From assembly GCF_000226565.1 (NCBI RefSeq), contig NC_016041.1, forward strand, positions 806,001-870,000: a stretch of 64,000 nt of DNA. The letters are read 5' to 3'. The position numbers and the translations under genes are program-made. The notes beneath the pieces are model-generated. The model saw only the letters and a program-made list of their open reading frames with translations. It made no database searches and had not been told where the DNA came from. Positions 21,103 through 29,308 of this stretch are shown here, in pieces; position 1 is the stretch's first letter, and every line of letters starts with the position of its first letter. Origin of the DNA: Glaciecola nitratireducens FR1064. GTDB lineage: Bacteria; Pseudomonadota; Gammaproteobacteria; Enterobacterales; Alteromonadaceae.

Positions 21103-21939
21103 CTACGCCTTAATTGTGGGAGTTGTCGTTCTGAGGCGGAAGACTAAAAGTCCTAGACCACCCAGTATTGCCAAACTCGCCGTTGCTGGTGCAACTACAT
21201 TTACAGCCGTCGAAGGAACGTTGACGGCCAAAGATTTGAACTCGGCTGTTTGGCTTTCGGTATAAATACCCACTCTACCGCTCACAAATGTACTATCACT
21301 AACACTGTAGTCTATAGTCTGAGGCGTACCACTTTGCGCAACATTGGTAGGCACAATAGCGCCTTGTATACCACGAATGCTCTGCATCAACCCCTGAACT
21401 GAAAGACTAATTGAATCTGCAACACGCGAGATACTAAATTTATATGCAACGTCCTCAAGCCAAAAACTGCTATCCCAGTTTTTGATTGTGTTACTGCGAC
21501 CATTTTCTTCTTTGACCAAGAAAAGGCCCGTTTTACCTGTTACGTCTTTCACACCGCTTGAGTTTGAACCATCTCCTTGACTCCAACCCAATCGATAATG
21601 ATTGTTCGCATCTTGCCAACCAAACACTAAACCTAAGATATCGTCATCGTCACATGTGTTCTCAGCTTGACAGCTGGCGTTGTACGCATATGTAGGTGTA
21701 AAAATCCCGCTAAATGTAAAGTCCCCACCGAGTGTAAAGTCGCTGATAAGCGCGCCCGAGGAATTCCCCTGTTTTTTGGGAGCGTTATCATGTAACTGTA
21801 CCCAATTTTCGTTGCTTAATCTGTCCGAGGATGGCGAAACAGACTCGGTCCACTTAGTCGTGTCGATTAGAATTTGCGCAGACTGTGCACTAAATGACAA
21901 CGTCAATGCGGCTATACTGATAAAACGTGTTAGCGTCAT
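21103..21939 (-). CDS. Secreted lectin/TSP-C-like protein with PEP-CTERM-like sorting signal
   Basis: A 278-residue secreted protein. Residues 1-20 are a Sec signal ending SAQSAQ. The body (about 22-230) is beta-rich, with DDDILGLVFGWQDANNHYRLGWSQGDG and VSGRVGIYTESQTAEF, a pattern like the thrombospondin C-terminal / laminin-G lectin-type fold; two Cys near residues 92 and 97 may pair. The C terminus (about 245-278) has VAPATASLAILGGLGLLVF followed by Arg, which looks like a PEP-CTERM tripartite signal with VPEP replaced by VAPAT, a variant I associate with Alteromonadales. Such proteins are processed by exosortases and are often linked to exopolysaccharide loci, here divergently adjacent. 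No exosortase is in this window. Confidence 0.75.
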   Translation of the reverse strand: MTLTRFISIAALTLSFSAQSAQILIDTTKWTESVSPSSDRLSNENWVQLHDNAPKKQGNSSGALISDFTLGGDFTFSGIFTPTYAYNASCQAENTCDDDDILGLVFGWQDANNHYRLGWSQGDGSNSSGVKDVTGKTGLFLVKEENGRSNTIKNWDSSFWLEDVAYKFSISRVADSISLSVQGLMQSIRGIQGAIVPTNVAQSGTPQTIDYSVSDSTFVSGRVGIYTESQTAEFKSLAVNVPSTAVNVVAPATASLAILGGLGLLVFRLRTTTPTIKA

Positions 21940-22288: not shown

Positions 22289-24310
22289 ATGTCATTAAAA
22301 AATTTAGTTGTAATTTTGCGAGGCTCTTGCTTTCTCATATTCATTGTTATTGGGCTTTGTCTAAATGTCTCAAAAACCTTCGCAAACGATGTAGTCATTG
22401 CCTATACTGATGAGCAGATGTGGCAATGGGTCAATGAAACTTATCTGCTGACGGAAAGTACAATCGAAAAAGAAGAGTCCTTGTTTGTTGCTTCACGGGT
22501 TCTTGGTCAATCTTGCCGTGTTAACTTAACTGTTCCGACCAACTCTGCCGATTTGCTCCAAGAATCTCTATATTGGGAAAAAAATTACGGGCTTGAGCTT
22601 CGCGGTGGCATTACCAGTGGGGATTTAGATAATAGCGAAATAGACGATGGGGGGCTAAGTTACCTTGAGCTCTCTTGGGATGTGCTCGACAACGGCTACA
22701 AAGAGTTCGATTATAGAGCGCAAGACTTGAAGCGCCGCGCTGCCCTTGAACGAATTTCTACACAGCTTGAACAAATAGCTAACCGCTACCGTTGTCGCAG
22801 TTATCAAATCGGCAAGTCCTTCGTTGGTATTGAGGCGAAGATTGCTGCTGCAAAGCTCGGCTTGATGGAGTCTGTGTATAAAATAGAACAAGAAGCCTAT
22901 TTTAATGGTGGCAGCGATTTAGATGAATTACTGATTTCGGAAGAAGCATTATTTACACTACGTCGTCGGCTGGAGCAGCTCAATTCTCCGCAAAACTATC
23001 AACAGGAAACCTTCGAAGTACTTAATCTGCCTGCTTTTGACATCAATATTGAGCAACTGCTACAAAACATCGGCGATGACCCGAGGTTTAAAAGTGTTGT
23101 CGATCTCCAGCAGCAGCGCGCAGCTGCAATTAACCCGTATCAAGATGGTAATCGACTACGATTTTTCGTGCGTAAAGAATTCGATATATTGTCTTCTAAT
23201 CGTGACGATTTGGTTGCAGGAGTTCGGTTTGCTGTGCCCTTGGTGTTTGCGGATAGACCAAATTATCAAAACAAGCTGCAGCAACTTGACCAAGAAAGAA
23301 GCCTTGATGAGTGGGAGCGTATAACAAGAGTGCGCGAGGCTTATCAAAGTTTTAGACAGCAGAGTGATAGAGTAATAACGCAAAACTATCGTTATCTGCG
23401 CAGCAAAGAGCGCATGCGCCGAGTTTTTAGCCGCAAAGCCATGGGTGACCCATTGATGTTACAAGCGGTTATCGCTCGGCTAGTTACTTATGTCGATGCT
23501 AGCCTTGAGCTGATTGCTGCAAAGCAAGGGTTGTTTGAAAGAGCGAATGCATTGTTTCTGACCTCAAGATTGGATTTTTCACCCGAATACATTCGCCCGC
23601 TACCCATGTCTATCGAAAACCACCGCTCTCGGCCCTACTCACGAGGAGTCTACATTTGGTCTGATGCCTTTAATCGGCTCAGTAACGAGCAAATATTATT
23701 GTTACTACAAACCAAATCATTCACACGAGTAATGCTGTCTTACAGTAAGATGACAGACAAACAAAAGCTGGCCAATTTTATGCAAAGCGCCCAGCAAAAA
23801 GGCATCAAGATTGAGTTGATGCTCAGTGATAATCAATGGGTTTACGAGCGTAACCATATGAAAGCTGCGCAAACGGTCGCGGCGCTGACGATGCAAACTG
23901 ATCATATTCATCTGGATATTGAACCCCAAGCCCTGGATAGTTACGCTGAGGAAAAGGAGCAATACCAACAGCGCTTTATTGACATGCTCAAAGCGATACG
24001 CTTGCAGTCGCCCGATGTTTATTTGAGCATAGCCGTTCCTTTTCACTGGGAGCTAGAAACCTACCGTAAAGTCGCGGCATTGACTGATAAAGTTGTGGTG
24101 ATGAACTACGAAAATGACCGTGTTGATACGCTAGTACGTCGAATGAAAAATATTTTGCAGGTTGTACCTAAGTCGAAAGTAGCTATGGCCGTTAGACCAA
24201 ATGATTTTTCTACAAATTTTGCGCTTGAAGAGAGCCTGAAGCTAGTGAATAAAGCATCGGGGGTTGACGAGTTTGTAATGCATAAACTTGCTGACCTAGT
24301 TAATGAATAA
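22289..24310 (+). CDS. TolC-like outer-membrane factor fused to a GH18-like TIM-barrel domain
   Basis: A 673-residue exported protein with a signal peptide (about 1-34, ending SKTFA). Residues 40-440 look like an outer-membrane efflux protein: two long heptad-rich helical hairpins (DLKRRAALERISTQLEQIA; LQQLDQERSLDEWERITRV), each preceded by amphipathic beta-hairpin segments (YGLELRGGITSGD and LSYLELSWDV; RLRFFVRKEFD and LVAGVRFAVPL). Residues about 455-673 resemble a GH18-type barrel: RGVYIWSDAF, then IHLDIEP with a D-x-E pair, YLSIAVPFHWE, and VVVMNYEND. The C-terminal position puts this domain in the periplasm. It is the first gene of a four-gene operon (12 bases before the HlyD gene). I infer an export channel with an attached polysaccharide-cleaving domain; substrate unknown. 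Confidence 0.65.
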   Translation: MSLKNLVVILRGSCFLIFIVIGLCLNVSKTFANDVVIAYTDEQMWQWVNETYLLTESTIEKEESLFVASRVLGQSCRVNLTVPTNSADLLQESLYWEKNYGLELRGGITSGDLDNSEIDDGGLSYLELSWDVLDNGYKEFDYRAQDLKRRAALERISTQLEQIANRYRCRSYQIGKSFVGIEAKIAAAKLGLMESVYKIEQEAYFNGGSDLDELLISEEALFTLRRRLEQLNSPQNYQQETFEVLNLPAFDINIEQLLQNIGDDPRFKSVVDLQQQRAAAINPYQDGNRLRFFVRKEFDILSSNRDDLVAGVRFAVPLVFADRPNYQNKLQQLDQERSLDEWERITRVREAYQSFRQQSDRVITQNYRYLRSKERMRRVFSRKAMGDPLMLQAVIARLVTYVDASLELIAAKQGLFERANALFLTSRLDFSPEYIRPLPMSIENHRSRPYSRGVYIWSDAFNRLSNEQILLLLQTKSFTRVMLSYSKMTDKQKLANFMQSAQQKGIKIELMLSDNQWVYERNHMKAAQTVAALTMQTDHIHLDIEPQALDSYAEEKEQYQQRFIDMLKAIRLQSPDVYLSIAVPFHWELETYRKVAALTDKVVVMNYENDRVDTLVRRMKNILQVVPKSKVAMAVRPNDFSTNFALEESLKLVNKASGVDEFVMHKLADLVNE

Positions 24311-24322
24311 GGGCAAACAATA

Positions 24323-25324
24323 ATGAAGTTGCATCAAAAAAAGAGTTATTTAGTCTCCCAGGACGAGGGGCATCCCGAACGCAGGAAGTGGCCTCGATTC
24401 ACACAACTGCTGTATTTTTTATTTATTTTATTTATCTTTTTGTACGTAATTTATTTCTTTTTTGCTCGTAGTTTTTATCTTAAAACAGACGGCATTATTG
24501 AAGTTTCAAAGCAGAGAATAGCCGCAACTCACGGTGGTAAAATTGAACAATTTACTGTAGCCCAAGGAGACCGTTTTAAAGCAGGAGATAAATTAGCGGT
24601 TATTGGAGCCGCGCGCTTTTGTAGTCCGCCGGCCGCCGATACGCGTTCAGCGCAGCTAGCATTTACTATAAAAGATGAAGAGATTGAGTTAAGTGGCTTA
24701 CTTAAAGAATTCGCGTTGCTTAAACGTATTCAAGCGCAGCCCGCTCGAATCGATGCAGGCATTCGTCGTGCACTAGAGTTAAATGCACCGCTGCTGCAAA
24801 ACCCGCAGGCTGAAAATATTAAGATGCTAGAAAAACAGAATGAAATTGATATTCAGCGCTTACGCATTGCGAATTTGAATGAACGCCTTAAACTACAGCG
24901 CAACGTTGCTGTGACTGTAAATAATGATCCGAGTTGCTCAGCAGAAATAATTTCAGCGCCGTTTGATGGGTACGTATTTTCAACCACTTTTAGCCAAAAT
25001 GAGGTGAGCAATCGTGGCGAGACTATTATGACGATCGTGGCTGATAATGCTGAAGTGAACATAGAGATTTACTTAGAGAATGATTTGTTTGCTTCTGCAC
25101 AACCGCAGCAAACCTTTGACATTACACTTCCTAATGGTGAGTCGTCGAAAGCCGTTGTTAGCGAGATATTCTCCTCTGCGATTACGCAGCCAGAGCGTGC
25201 TTGGAATAACTATAAGCCAGTAATACCGCAGCTGAAGGCTAACCTTGTGCCAGTAGATAAAAGCGATGTAGAACTATGGAAGCAGTACGATCGATACAGT
25301 GTCGACGTTAAGGGGATAAAATGA
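24323..25324 (+). CDS. HlyD-type membrane-fusion (periplasmic adaptor) protein
   Basis: A 333-residue inner-membrane-anchored adaptor. A single transmembrane helix (about 28-49, rich in Phe/Leu/Ile) follows a basic cytoplasmic N terminus (ERRKWPR). The first half of the lipoyl/barrel-sandwich domain is at about 55-95 (GGKIEQFTVAQGDRFKAGDKLAVIG), a helical coiled coil spans about 110-205, and the second lipoyl half is at about 210-240 (ISAPFDGYVFSTTFSQNEVSNRGETIM), followed by a beta-barrel domain. This is the type I secretion/efflux adaptor layout and also that of the Alg44 periplasmic part. AAGGG-type ribosome site at 24310-24314; the stop overlaps the next gene (ATGA). It would bridge the glycosyltransferase and the TolC-like protein. 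Confidence 0.8.
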   Translation: MKLHQKKSYLVSQDEGHPERRKWPRFTQLLYFLFILFIFLYVIYFFFARSFYLKTDGIIEVSKQRIAATHGGKIEQFTVAQGDRFKAGDKLAVIGAARFCSPPAADTRSAQLAFTIKDEEIELSGLLKEFALLKRIQAQPARIDAGIRRALELNAPLLQNPQAENIKMLEKQNEIDIQRLRIANLNERLKLQRNVAVTVNNDPSCSAEIISAPFDGYVFSTTFSQNEVSNRGETIMTIVADNAEVNIEIYLENDLFASAQPQQTFDITLPNGESSKAVVSEIFSSAITQPERAWNNYKPVIPQLKANLVPVDKSDVELWKQYDRYSVDVKGIK

Positions 25325-26724
25325 GAGCATTCTACGCTGTATCAGCGAAACCTAATTATATCCTCACTTCATTACAGCATGTTGAAGAACAAGCCATCGT
25401 GAATGTCGCATCTGAATGTCTAGGTTTCTTCGTTAGCTACGAAAACGATGAACAGGCTGAGCATCTCTTAAATGCTATACGCCAACATGATAACCCAAAC
25501 GTCTATTTGCGTGCGATTGTGTTGCTGCATAATAGCGAGCTCAAGCCAAATTACATCCGCGAACGCTTCGATTGTGTATTTACTGAAGACGAATTTACAG
25601 AAGTGCAATTAGCTGATTTACAAAGTAAGTTTGGAAAGTTAAATAGCTGGATTGCTAAAATACCTAATAATGATAATACGCTAAGTGATGCAAGTTTACG
25701 TTTCCGGGCGCTGCGCTTGATGGCGAGTCGCAATGCGCGCTGCACGCCTAACGCGACGATCTATGATAAACGAGGCTTTGAATACAGCCTACTTAGGCCT
25801 TTGTTCAGCGAGTCAGATGGCAGTGTTGAAAAGGTTTTAGCGTTTTTACAGTCTCAGCAGTTAGTGAAAGATGAGTTTGTTAAAAAAGCACACTTTTGTC
25901 CCCACTGTGACAGTGCCTTTTTAAATTTTAAAGAAACTTGTCCAGACTGCAGTAGTGATAATTTGGAACGCGACGAACTCATCCATCACTTTAAGTGCGG
26001 TCATACGGACGTGATCAATAAGTTTATCTATAATAATCGTTTAAAGTGTCCCAAATGTGAAGATGATTTAAAACATATTGGTGTTGACTACGATAAGCCA
26101 TCGACGGTTTCAACTTGTTTAGAGTGTAAGCGTACCTTTCAAGACCCTGAAGTTAAAGCTGACTGTTTTGCCTGCCATCGTTCCAGTAGCAGTGATGATT
26201 TGACTTTACGCACAATGAGTGCGTTTAGTGTCTCAGCAATAGGCGCCAATGCCGCGCGTTTTGGTCTAGATGCATTATTTACCTCAATACTCCAGACCGA
26301 TCTAAAGCTTTATAGCAGTGCCGAAATTAAGCAGTTTGTTATAGTCGAAAAAGCGAGGATAGAACGTTATAAAAAGTCTGAAACAAGCTTAGCTGTCATT
26401 CATTTTGCCAACTTAGAGGCTCTATTTGATACTCTTGGACGCAAAACCGAACAAGTGTTTAAAGAAATTAGTGCGGTCTTTAAGTCGATTTTTCGTGAGT
26501 CGGATCTGATCACGGCGAAAAACGAAAGTTTGTATGCGGTGATAATGACTGAAACCTCCACTCAAAATGCTAAGTTGGCGATTGAGCGACTTGACGATGC
26601 TATCAAAGGCTTATTCGAGGGTAGTCTTGATTTCACACTGCAGGTAAATACTGAGATTACTAATATAATTGAGGTTGATGATTTAGATGTTGTTATCGAT
26701 GAATTTATTTCTGCTGAGGGTTAA
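25321..26724 (+). CDS. TackOD1-like zinc-binding protein with degenerate GGDEF domain (predicted c-di-GMP receptor)
   Basis: A 467-residue soluble protein with no signal or transmembrane segment. Residues 1-115 look like a degenerate receiver domain. Residues about 185-300 hold CxxC pairs at 193/196, 207/210, 243/246, 266/269 and 282/285 plus Cys226, with the linking phrases LIHHFKCGH and HIGVDYDKPSTV; I recognise this as the TackOD1 metal-binding output domain. Residues about 340-460 are a GGDEF fold in which the active-site motif is NESLY (401-405) while the inhibitory-site motif RESD (392-395) is kept at the correct five-residue spacing. The same design, a dead cyclase that senses c-di-GMP, is established for PelD. 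It is translationally coupled to the HlyD gene, so I infer control of the adjacent polysaccharide synthase. Confidence 0.72.
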   Translation: MRAFYAVSAKPNYILTSLQHVEEQAIVNVASECLGFFVSYENDEQAEHLLNAIRQHDNPNVYLRAIVLLHNSELKPNYIRERFDCVFTEDEFTEVQLADLQSKFGKLNSWIAKIPNNDNTLSDASLRFRALRLMASRNARCTPNATIYDKRGFEYSLLRPLFSESDGSVEKVLAFLQSQQLVKDEFVKKAHFCPHCDSAFLNFKETCPDCSSDNLERDELIHHFKCGHTDVINKFIYNNRLKCPKCEDDLKHIGVDYDKPSTVSTCLECKRTFQDPEVKADCFACHRSSSSDDLTLRTMSAFSVSAIGANAARFGLDALFTSILQTDLKLYSSAEIKQFVIVEKARIERYKKSETSLAVIHFANLEALFDTLGRKTEQVFKEISAVFKSIFRESDLITAKNESLYAVIMTETSTQNAKLAIERLDDAIKGLFEGSLDFTLQVNTEITNIIEVDDLDVVIDEFISAEG

Positions 26725-26732
26725 CTAGCTTT

Positions 26733-28034
26733 ATGGAAGGGTTGCTCGAATTTGCCTTAGGACTCACGGGCACTCAGCTAATTGCCTATTTTTGGCCGTT
26801 TTTTATACTTGATATGCTGCGCTACGTGGTGTTAGAAAGTATTCTTATTTTTGCATTTCTTTTTCGCAAGCGCAGAGATAAACCGAAAAGACGCTTGGCA
26901 CGTCATCAGCTATTCTTTGAAAAGCCATTGGTCTCTATTCTGGTTCCAGGTAAAAACGAGGGTAAACATCTACTTAAGTTAGTTCAATCGCTTGCACAAC
27001 AAACCTATAAAAATATTGAGCTGATTGTGGTCGATGATGGCTCAGATGACGAAACGCCTATTATTTGTCGACGGTTGCAGCGTGAAGGTAAAATCGATGT
27101 CTTTATCCGCAACGAAGTCAGAGGTGGAAAGGCCTCTGCAGCTAATACAGCATTTCAGCACTCGAAGGGCCGCTATATCGTACATATTGATGCCGATTCA
27201 CATTTAGAAAGTGATGCGATTGAGAAAATACTCCTGCCTTTTTATTTAAATGAAAATGTTGGCGCAGTGGGTGGCGACGTGCGAGTGGCCAATTCAGATG
27301 ATAGTTTTGCCAGTCGTTTACAAACTATCGAATATTATAAAACCATCAGTGCAGGGCGCACCGCGTCATCTGAACTCAATATTTTACGTATTATATCGGG
27401 TGCTCATGGTGTATTTCGACGTGATGTATTGGAACGCATCGAAGGTTGGGATGTTGGCCCTGGGCTTGATGGTGATCTCACTTTAAAAGTTCGAAAGCTC
27501 GGCTATGACGTAGTGCATCAAGTTGATGCAGTTTGTTATACAAACGTACCAACCACATTCAGAAAGCTGTCTAAACAGCGCTATCGTTGGGATAAATCAT
27601 TAATTCGATTTCGTTTGCGCAAACATTTAGACGTACTGAAGCCGGATGCTAATTTCCGTGGTTCTAACTTCTTTTCCGTATTAGAAAATATAATTTTCAA
27701 CGTGTTTTTTGATTTTAAATGGTTTGTCTATTTTATTATTATGCTAATCACACAACCAGAGAATCTGGGGTATATTTTTATCATTAATTATTGCCTGTAT
27801 TTTCTCGCGAACTGCTTTCAGTTTGTCATAGTGCGGATGCTAGTAAACGATACTTTCAAGCAACCTGATAAATTTTTGCCTCTGTTCCTGCCGCTCATGC
27901 CTTTTTATACGGGAGTGTATTTGCGTATAGTTCGCACATATTCATATATCATGGAGTTCTTTCATAAAACCTCCTACGATGATAGTTGGAACCCTTGGAA
28001 AGTTTCGCGAATAGCAAAAAAAGATGACCTTTAG
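26733..28034 (+). CDS. Processive-type family 2 glycosyltransferase (polysaccharide synthase)
   Basis: A 433-residue membrane glycosyltransferase. One or two transmembrane helices (about 15-45) precede a GT2 catalytic domain with VSILVPGKNEG (68-77), VVDDGSDDETP (99-109), HIDADSH (DxD at 153-155), the third Asp in GLDGDLTLK (246-248), and QRYRW (282-286), the QxxRW acceptor/processivity motif. C-terminal transmembrane helices (about 320-410) follow. This D,D,D,QxxRW pattern is shared by cellulose, hyaluronan, chitin and poly-GlcNAc synthases; the sequence does not fix the sugar. It lies eight bases after the TackOD1-GGDEF gene, behind GAGGG, and is the last gene of the operon. Confidence 0.88.
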   Translation: MEGLLEFALGLTGTQLIAYFWPFFILDMLRYVVLESILIFAFLFRKRRDKPKRRLARHQLFFEKPLVSILVPGKNEGKHLLKLVQSLAQQTYKNIELIVVDDGSDDETPIICRRLQREGKIDVFIRNEVRGGKASAANTAFQHSKGRYIVHIDADSHLESDAIEKILLPFYLNENVGAVGGDVRVANSDDSFASRLQTIEYYKTISAGRTASSELNILRIISGAHGVFRRDVLERIEGWDVGPGLDGDLTLKVRKLGYDVVHQVDAVCYTNVPTTFRKLSKQRYRWDKSLIRFRLRKHLDVLKPDANFRGSNFFSVLENIIFNVFFDFKWFVYFIIMLITQPENLGYIFIINYCLYFLANCFQFVIVRMLVNDTFKQPDKFLPLFLPLMPFYTGVYLRIVRTYSYIMEFFHKTSYDDSWNPWKVSRIAKKDDL

Positions 28035-28060: not shown

Positions 28061-29308
28061 TTAAGAGCCTCTAAAGTCATAAACAAAATTTTTGGATAAC
28101 ATTAATTTTTGAGTTGCTAAATCAGATACAATAGTGTCATGTGCCACTGCTAAAAATCCAACATCAAACACTTGGTTTGGATTTAATTCAGTTAAGACTT
28201 CTACATTAAAAGTTTGGAAAACCTCTTCTTTATTAACCCACGGATCATATATCTGAACATCTAATCCCATATTGATTAACACAATGTAAAGCTCGTATAC
28301 TTTTGTGTTTCTTATATCAGGACAGTTTTCTTTAAACGTAAAGCCCAATAGTAAAATTTTACAATTGAGTGGATTGATCTTACGCAAAATCAGTTTGCGT
28401 AAAAAGTCATTGGCAAAATAGTTTGGCATTCCATTGTTTATTTCTCTGGCGGTTCTCATTAAATCGGGGATAAATCCGGCATTTTCAGATTTATGTAACA
28501 AGTAATAAGGATCGACACTGATACAATGGCCACCAACCATGCCCGGCATTAATTTCATAAAATTCCATTTGGTTGCGGCTGCGTCAATGACATCCTTGGT
28601 GTTAATGCCTAGTTTATTAAACACTTGATGTAACTCATTGACTAGCGCGATATTGACATCGCGTTGCACGTTTTCTATTACTTTTGACGCTTCAGCGACT
28701 TTGATTGAAGGAGCTTTGTGTGTACCTGCAATCACAATAGTTTGATACAAGGTATCTATTAGCTCGGCAACTTCTGGTGTAGAGCCAGAGGTAACTTTTA
28801 TTATGTTGGTGAGTCGTTTTACTTTGTCCCCAGGATTAATGCGTTCAGGTGAATAGCCTGCAAAAAAGTCTTTGTTGAATACTAAACCACTGATTTTTTC
28901 CAATATTGGTACGCATATGTCTTCCGTAACGCCGGGGTAAACTGTTGATTCATATATAATAATATTTCCATTAGCGATATGCGGGGCTATCATTTCACTA
29001 ACGTTTATAAGCGGAGTTAAGTCTGGTTGTTTATTTATATCGACGGGCGTTGGCACGGTAACTATATAAATATTACATGCTTTAATCTTATTAATATCAG
29101 AGGTTATGGATAGTTTATCGGACAAATGTATTTCATCTGTTTCAAGCTCCTCCGTATTGTCATAGCCCAAGTTAAGCTCTTGGACACGTTTTTGATTAGT
29201 ATCGAATCCAACCGTAATAAAGTGTTTACCAAACTCTACCGCTAAAGGTAAACCAACGTAACCAAGACCGATAACCCCTATTTTCGTGGCACTTCTATTT
29301 AATTTCAT
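28061..29308 (-). CDS. UDP-N-acetylhexosamine 6-dehydrogenase, TviB/WbpO-like
   Basis: A 415-residue NAD-dependent enzyme that oxidises a UDP-HexNAc to the uronic acid. The Rossmann motif IGVIGLGYVGLPLAVEFG is near the N terminus; VTVPTPVD, YESTVYPGVTE and SPERINPGD follow, with the catalytic Cys in GMVGGHCISVDPYYL (near 265) and FTFKENCPDIRNTKV in the C-terminal domain. The overall pattern, including TVYPGVTE and FKENCPDIRNT, is closest in my memory to Vi-antigen TviB and WbpO, not to UDP-glucose dehydrogenase. It is convergent with the glycosyltransferase with a 26-base gap and looks more AT-rich than its neighbours, which hints at transfer. Confidence 0.85.
   Translation of the reverse strand: MKLNRSATKIGVIGLGYVGLPLAVEFGKHFITVGFDTNQKRVQELNLGYDNTEELETDEIHLSDKLSITSDINKIKACNIYIVTVPTPVDINKQPDLTPLINVSEMIAPHIANGNIIIYESTVYPGVTEDICVPILEKISGLVFNKDFFAGYSPERINPGDKVKRLTNIIKVTSGSTPEVAELIDTLYQTIVIAGTHKAPSIKVAEASKVIENVQRDVNIALVNELHQVFNKLGINTKDVIDAAATKWNFMKLMPGMVGGHCISVDPYYLLHKSENAGFIPDLMRTAREINNGMPNYFANDFLRKLILRKINPLNCKILLLGFTFKENCPDIRNTKVYELYIVLINMGLDVQIYDPWVNKEEVFQTFNVEVLTELNPNQVFDVGFLAVAHDTIVSDLATQKLMLSKNFVYDFRGS

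Follow-up and report, generated by a model that had tools for sequence, protein, structure and literature searches.

How does a polysaccharide made by an inner-membrane synthase leave a Gram-negative cell when its operon encodes a TolC-like protein instead of a porin of the BcsC, PgaA or AlgE type, none of which is found among the operon genes? The question is raised by four genes at positions 22289 to 28034 of a 64,000-nucleotide stretch of Glaciecola nitratireducens FR1064 (NC_016041.1, positions 806,001 to 870,000, forward strand), hereafter the window. As set out below, the locus probably encodes a divergent secretion machine of the Mxd type, in which a synthase gated by cyclic di-GMP (c-di-GMP) makes a polysaccharide that leaves through a dedicated TolC-type exit. 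The features of the operon, read from its open reading frames (ORFs) unless another basis is given, are as follows.

22289..24310, + strand: gene 1, 673 aa; signal peptide, TolC-like region and C-terminal glycosidase-like TIM barrel
about residues 41-426 of gene 1: predicted TolC-like region (AlphaFold2 (AF2) model, Foldseek, Pfam OEP in homologues)
23630..24307, + strand: predicted glycosidase-like barrel, about residues 448-673 of gene 1 (AF2, Foldseek, alignments)
24323..25324, + strand: gene 2, 333 aa; HlyD/EmrA-type periplasmic adaptor, MxdC homologue
25321..26724, + strand: gene 3, 467 aa; degenerate receiver, TackOD1 and degenerate GGDEF domains, MxdA homologue
26494..26505, + strand: RxxD (R392-D395), I-site-like motif of the gene 3 GGDEF domain (conservation across loci)
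26733..28034, + strand: gene 4, 433 aa; membrane synthase of glycosyltransferase family 2 (GT2), MxdB homologue
27576..27590, + strand: QRYRW motif (Q282-W286), processive-GT2 signature of gene 4 (conservation in 35 loci)

The four ORFs share one strand and are tightly packed, with 12 nt between genes 1 and 2, an ATGA overlap of genes 2 and 3, and 8 nt between genes 3 and 4, as an initial annotation of this DNA had read them. Its domain reading, namely a TolC-like protein with a glycosidase-like barrel, a HlyD-type adaptor, a metal-binding protein with a degenerate GGDEF domain and a GT2 of the processive type, likewise agrees with the Pfam, AF2, Foldseek and motif results.

Homology of genes 2-4 to the Shewanella Mxd system

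We compared the operon with mxdABCD of Shewanella oneidensis MR-1. The mxd genes form a putative exopolysaccharide cluster required for biofilm formation by this species, in which mxdA and mxdB mutants are without aggregation and biofilm, and in which MxdC resembles an efflux pump (PMC3691769). Furthermore, MxdA is reported to bind c-di-GMP and to have a diguanylate cyclase and CheY3 among its interaction partners (PMC7666153, PMC11395469). Shewanella genomes were recognised by their OmcA/MtrC cytochromes and then searched for TackOD1. The MR-1 genome was located by an 8,001-base megaplasmid stretch identical to NC_004349, and the published primers for the mxd promoter (PMC3691769) have exact matches there, immediately upstream of the TackOD1 gene. 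MxdA is therefore the TackOD1 protein (Pfam TackOD1, E 5e-71), MxdB the GT2 and MxdC the HlyD-type protein.

Genes 3, 4 and 2 are homologous to mxdA, mxdB and mxdC, respectively: blastp aligned the gene 3 protein with MxdA (27% over 380 aa, E 9e-34) and the gene 4 protein with MxdB (29% over 390 aa, E 7e-53), and the adaptor profile of the window's clade (type A) matched MxdC (E 2.4e-13). The two operons thus share a TackOD1/degenerate GGDEF protein, a GT2 and a HlyD-type protein. They differ in order, which is TolC-mxdC-mxdA-mxdB here and mxdA-B-C-D in MR-1; since the order varies across the family, we do not treat it as defining Mxd. In addition, the small mxdD-like gene of the MR-1 operon has no counterpart at the window locus, whereas the TolC-like/barrel fusion is present in the window and absent from the mxd operon, MR-1 not having been searched genome-wide for it. 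Judged by sequence, the locus is a homologous, divergent Mxd-type system, for which we do not claim mxd orthology.

Conservation of the core trio and an optional TolC/barrel module

We then investigated how widely these genes occur together. At the order level, 24 of the 395 genomes searched had a TackOD1 match above the cut-off, and at the phylum level 14 of 398; within the window's genus, the window genome carries it and 0 of 12 others do. A contig search using gene 3 as query gave two close loci only. The loci surveyed were the neighbourhoods of the TackOD1 places from the order and phylum searches together with two named loci, all in Pseudomonadota. A GT2 gene and a HlyD-type gene were found to adjoin the TackOD1 gene in 35 of 35 loci, most of which are bare three-gene operons (TackOD1-GT2-HlyD) with unrelated flanks. 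Because the trio stands together in every locus, the association of genes 2-4 is well beyond chance, and a coincidence of lone genes is ruled out. Indeed, the distance matrices of the TackOD1, GT2 and HlyD proteins correlate with a Mantel r of 0.89-0.96, and the trio recurs in records of Plesiomonas, Photobacterium, Phyllobacterium, Roseibium and Palleronia.

In the GT2 tree, the window groups with Alteromonadaceae relatives and with one family of another class (f57), while MxdB falls in the other main clade and the clade A synthases are well separated from it. The TolC/barrel fusion is present at the complete loci of the window's clade, in the order TolC-HlyD-TackOD1-GT2, and also in a nested group of the MxdB clade (f30), in the order TackOD1-GT2-TolC-HlyD. 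The two fusion forms have the same domain order and the same invariant H541, D543, E545, M605 and Y607. Furthermore, among 277 genomes of the window's family, five of the five hits covering the TolC-like region sit in the same four-gene order, so that the four genes, taken for one complex in the initial annotation, do recur together in other genomes; a sixth gene 1 hit (G1047) is located away from such an operon. The TolC/barrel fusion is a module that not all members have, with a recurrent link to this synthase.

Several loci showed further peculiarities. In f57 genomes, a gene for a small exported tetratricopeptide repeat (TPR) protein precedes the TolC-like gene (L072 12345-12953, - strand; L073 13267-13965, - strand) and is reminiscent of the TPR scaffolds found in classical systems. 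The three-gene cassette is present twice in genome G352 (f25), at the separate loci L049 and L050, and in genome G360 two ORFs stand in place of a single GT2 gene (L055 6960-8275, - strand), owing to decay or sequencing error. Finally, mxdA-like and mxdB-like genes lie on a mobilizable 29 kb Aeromonas caviae plasmid (L083, NZ_AP024951, 5575-7944), and the cassette may therefore move horizontally.

A predicted TolC-like factor joined to a glycosidase-like barrel

The gene 1 protein has a hydrophobic N-terminus that suits a signal peptide. Since the window copy gave no convincing Pfam family match, we aligned nine homologues and predicted the structure; Pfam OEP (PF02321) matches three of the nine (best E 3.4e-10). 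The AF2 model, with a predicted local distance difference test score of 83.5, contains, twice, a pair of strands leading into a long helix (residues 135-205 and 326-426), and then an alternating strand/helix barrel from residue 451. Foldseek aligned the model with the structures of TolC, VceC and OprM (E about 1e-8 to 1e-7, prob 1.00), in line with the TolC fold that the initial annotation had assigned. The C-terminal part was matched to TIM-barrel enzymes, including the chitinase 3co4 of glycoside hydrolase family 18 (GH18) type, Cwp19 and PgaB (4f9j). Gene 1 is thus modelled as a TolC-fold outer-membrane factor joined to a glycosidase-like barrel. In our literature search, no paper matching a TolC-glycosidase fusion in exopolysaccharide export was found.

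Within the barrel, all nine aligned members share H541, D543, E545, M605 and Y607, which form HxDxE and MxY motifs in a GH18-like placement. The GH18 signature DxxDxDxE is incomplete: DxE and MxY are invariant, position -4 is His and the remainder is missing. Pfam GH18 matched neither gene 1 nor its homologues tested. When the barrel profile was compared with solved structures, it matched PDB 10yv (E 2.6e-6), aligned around the HxDxE motif; this C. fimi protein, labelled 'putative GH97' by its depositors, retains LDVEP. A divergent homologue in genome G860 (L128 7620-9584, - strand) keeps the four-gene order and the length of the region and has lost HxDxE. The gene of G1047 (L129 7689-8567, + strand) encodes a secreted barrel that stands alone, a one-domain relative of the fused barrel; it has an HLDIEP motif and belongs to no Pfam family. 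Since the chain ends of TolC lie in the periplasm, the gene 1 barrel would sit there too, beside the channel, where it may act on the polymer, act on peptidoglycan, or only bind. A putative glycosidase role, in which the barrel edits or releases the product, is possible.

The adaptor, the candidate c-di-GMP receptor and the synthase

The gene 2 protein matches Pfam HlyD_3 (E 3e-8) and has a single N-terminal transmembrane segment (residues 24-54). Against solved structures, its family profile matched EmrA best (E 7e-21), with MexJ and MacA also matched. We searched the adaptors for motifs of a hairpin tip that could dock to TolC; the signal was not consistent, and we therefore make no docking claim.

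The gene 3 protein matches Pfam TackOD1 (E 2e-61) and, barely past the cut-off, GGDEF (E 3e-5). The AF2 model and Foldseek confirmed the GGDEF fold and assigned a receiver-like first domain. The GGDEF signature is lost in the aligned members, whereas the RxxD motif is kept: D395 is retained in 35 of 35 loci and R392 in about 33 of 35, and together with R349 these are the best-kept positions of the domain. Loss of the signature with retention of RxxD therefore fits a receptor, as reported for MxdA, and not a cyclase. The proposal of the initial annotation that c-di-GMP binding to the third protein licenses the synthase is well supported by analogy with MxdA, which is reported to bind the nucleotide (PMC7666153, PMC11395469); the RxxD motif also survives in gene 3. 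One gene 3 homologue also matches Pfam PelD_GGDEF weakly (E 0.0023).

TackOD1 was described in 2018 as being of obscure function (PMC5847659); the present locus gives this orphan domain a working context, as part of a protein that reportedly acts as a c-di-GMP effector. In Roseibium and Palleronia (L085 5927-7804; L088 6146-7843), a true receiver domain stands ahead of TackOD1 and two-component genes (histidine kinase or Hpt) lie nearby; this alphaproteobacterial version is likely controlled by a phosphorelay. Two haloarchaeal plasmid genes (L086 6890-7891; L087 6911-7894) encode TackOD1 with no neighbouring GT2, and TackOD1 would therefore be a general output domain that was recruited in this system.

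The gene 4 protein matches Pfam GT2 (E 1.6e-29), and its D102, D153xD155, D248 and Q282RxRW286 positions show 97% conservation or more over the 35 loci. Its family profile scored 193 bits with PgaC, 36 with BcsA and 33 with BgsA, so that by sequence it is PgaC-like rather than cellulose-synthase-like. A PgaC-like synthase beside a GH18-like barrel hints at a polymer that may contain N-acetylhexosamine (HexNAc).

Comparison with other polysaccharide systems

The initial annotation had called the locus a new type of system, on the understanding that no synthase-dependent system uses a HlyD/TolC conduit. This part did not hold. The homologues of genes 2-4, mxdC, mxdA and mxdB, had already been described (PMC3691769), the rhizobial mixed-linkage glucan system has a HlyD-like component, BgsB (PMC9495663), and for cyanobacterial cellulose an unvalidated XcsA-XcsB(HlyD)-TolC route has been proposed, whose genes do not form a single operon (PMC12430437). 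What is left of the 'new type' is a divergent system of the Mxd type; its new feature is that the operon itself encodes the TolC-like/barrel fusion, as seen on two separate branches of the GT2 tree.

The XcsAB-TolC proposal resembles the window locus in its synthase, HlyD-like adaptor, TolC-like exit and associated hydrolase, and has been questioned because its parts are not co-encoded (PMC12430437). The Xcs synthase is cellulose-synthase-like with a PilZ domain and its parts are scattered in T. vulcanus, whereas the window has a PgaC-like GT2, no Pfam PilZ match in the operon proteins, and a single operon. Membership in the cellulose systems (BcsA, XcsAB-TolC) was rejected on the profile scores for BcsA and PgaC given above and on the lack of a PilZ match. 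BgsBA likewise pairs a GT2 with a HlyD-like partner and is activated by c-di-GMP (PMC9495663). However, BgsA is a 669-aa protein that holds its own C-terminal c-di-GMP domain, and bgsBA is described as two genes without the TolC-like gene that the window operon has; membership in the mixed-linkage glucan system was rejected on the length of gene 4 (433 versus 669 aa) and its 33 bits.

PgaC is the nearest named synthase family by profile, and the PgaB barrel was matched by fold. Yet the window operon is without the PgaA porin or a deacetylase, and the score of gene 4 against NCBIfam TIGR03937 (PgaC/IcaA), 158 bits, lies far under the cut-off of 422, so that membership in the poly-N-acetylglucosamine (PNAG) system was rejected. 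PelD of the Pel system is a degenerate GGDEF receptor with an RxxD motif that gates its synthase, a likeness shared by gene 3; no PelA-, PelB-, PelE-, PelF- or PelG-like genes were read among the operon ORFs. The systems that combine a TPR scaffold with a beta-barrel porin (Bcs, Alg, Pga and Pel) differ from the window operon in that porin type.

Proposed mechanism and alternative explanations

We infer c-di-GMP binding by the gene 3 protein, complex formation, an export route, a polymer chemistry and barrel activity in the following model. The MxdA-like protein would bind c-di-GMP at the RxxD motif of its catalytically dead GGDEF domain and thereby license the synthase; its receiver-like domain would accept a further signal. 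The MxdB-like GT2 would polymerise a sugar chain, probably containing HexNAc, and translocate it over the inner membrane; the HlyD-type adaptor would carry the chain or couple the complex across the periplasm, and a TolC-like trimer would release it through the outer membrane. The barrel on each TolC subunit would be placed next to the channel and act there on either the polymer or peptidoglycan. In this arrangement, the synthase would take the place that a pump has in a tripartite conduit, of which the adaptor and the TolC-like protein would be the two customary outer components. We also put forward, tentatively and at somewhat less than an even chance, a more specific version, in which the TolC-type trimer is a dedicated exit for the polymer of a processive synthase, coupling through HlyD is pump-free, three hydrolase domains trim or release the chain, and the zinc-ribbon domain TackOD1 works as a clutch through which the signals of c-di-GMP and of the receiver reach the synthase.

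Several results weigh against the Mxd-type secretion machine with its own TolC-type exit. The direct matches to the Mxd proteins are of modest identity (27-29%), the link between adaptor and MxdC comes from a profile only, and a product or export route is proven for no Mxd system in the literature consulted. The two fusion forms match weakly by profile-profile comparison (E 1.4e-4, prob 52%). RxxD is widespread in GGDEF domains at large, which makes its survival in gene 3 only suggestive. Moreover, a homologue of the TolC/barrel fusion was found in 0 of 23 three-gene genomes searched; the fusion is therefore dispensable for the core machine, and three-gene forms presumably make use of an outer-membrane protein from elsewhere.

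Two alternatives accept the Mxd-type machine and concern the barrel. It could work on peptidoglycan, clearing or anchoring the wall around the envelope-spanning channel, as suggested by the Foldseek match to the functional region of C. difficile Cwp19, which we take to be a cell-wall lytic enzyme, and by the periplasmic chain ends of TolC, which would put the barrel near the wall and not in the lumen. However, PgaB and a chitinase match about as well as Cwp19, the fusion occurs, among the genomes searched, only at these polysaccharide loci, and ordinary TolC proteins are generally known to have no such domain, so that we regard this reading as unlikely, though to be taken seriously. We give a similarly low probability to a non-catalytic binding or structural domain: the G860 homologue retains the region at full length without HxDxE, and the classical GH18 signature is incomplete with His at -4, but the five barrel residues are invariant in the nine aligned members, and the G1047 relative and PDB 10yv keep HLDIEP and LDVEP, respectively.

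It is highly improbable that the adaptor and the TolC-like protein have nothing to do with the polymer and serve common efflux or type I secretion, with the synthase as a mere neighbour. HlyD/TolC pairs do usually serve ABC, RND or MFS pumps, and the adaptor is homologous to EmrA; yet no ABC, RND or MFS pump gene was read within the four-gene operon, and the adaptor accompanies GT2 and TackOD1 in every locus surveyed, many of them bare three-gene operons. There is just as little to be said for a wholly new class of synthase-dependent system. The gene order is distinct, the TolC/barrel fusion was not found in the described systems checked, and the clade A synthases stand well apart from MxdB, but three of the four genes are homologous to a named, genetically studied system, which refutes the idea for the core and leaves the outer-membrane part alone as new.

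The preferred Mxd-type reading with a TolC-type exit matters in that Mxd is required for Shewanella biofilms and the locus suggests how an Mxd-type machine gets its polymer out. Unlike in the cyanobacterial proposal (PMC12430437), the synthase, HlyD and TolC-like parts are co-encoded in one operon. Since this holds in two branches, tripartite efflux-type export of a synthase-made polysaccharide becomes directly testable, and the co-encoded TolC/barrel exit likewise makes testable the outer-membrane step of Mxd, for whose exit or polymer we found no description in the literature.

Neighbouring genes

One divergent gene beside the operon is an uncertain part of the system:

21103..21939, - strand: secreted protein with a thrombospondin-C/lectin-like domain and a C-terminal anchor

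It is kept beside the operon in four Alteromonadaceae loci (the window, L005, L006 and L053), and its product is possibly a polymer-binding surface protein. The window genome encodes one exosortase (G000:C1:2826926-2827675). The genes from 28061 on (TviB-like dehydrogenase, TRAP transporter, FabV-like) do not recur at homologous loci and were rejected as members of the system. The first of these, a lone TviB-like nucleotide-sugar dehydrogenase gene (28061-29308, - strand), is convergent with gene 4. It could supply an acidic HexNAc precursor, but is probably unrelated to the operon, because it does not adjoin it in relatives.

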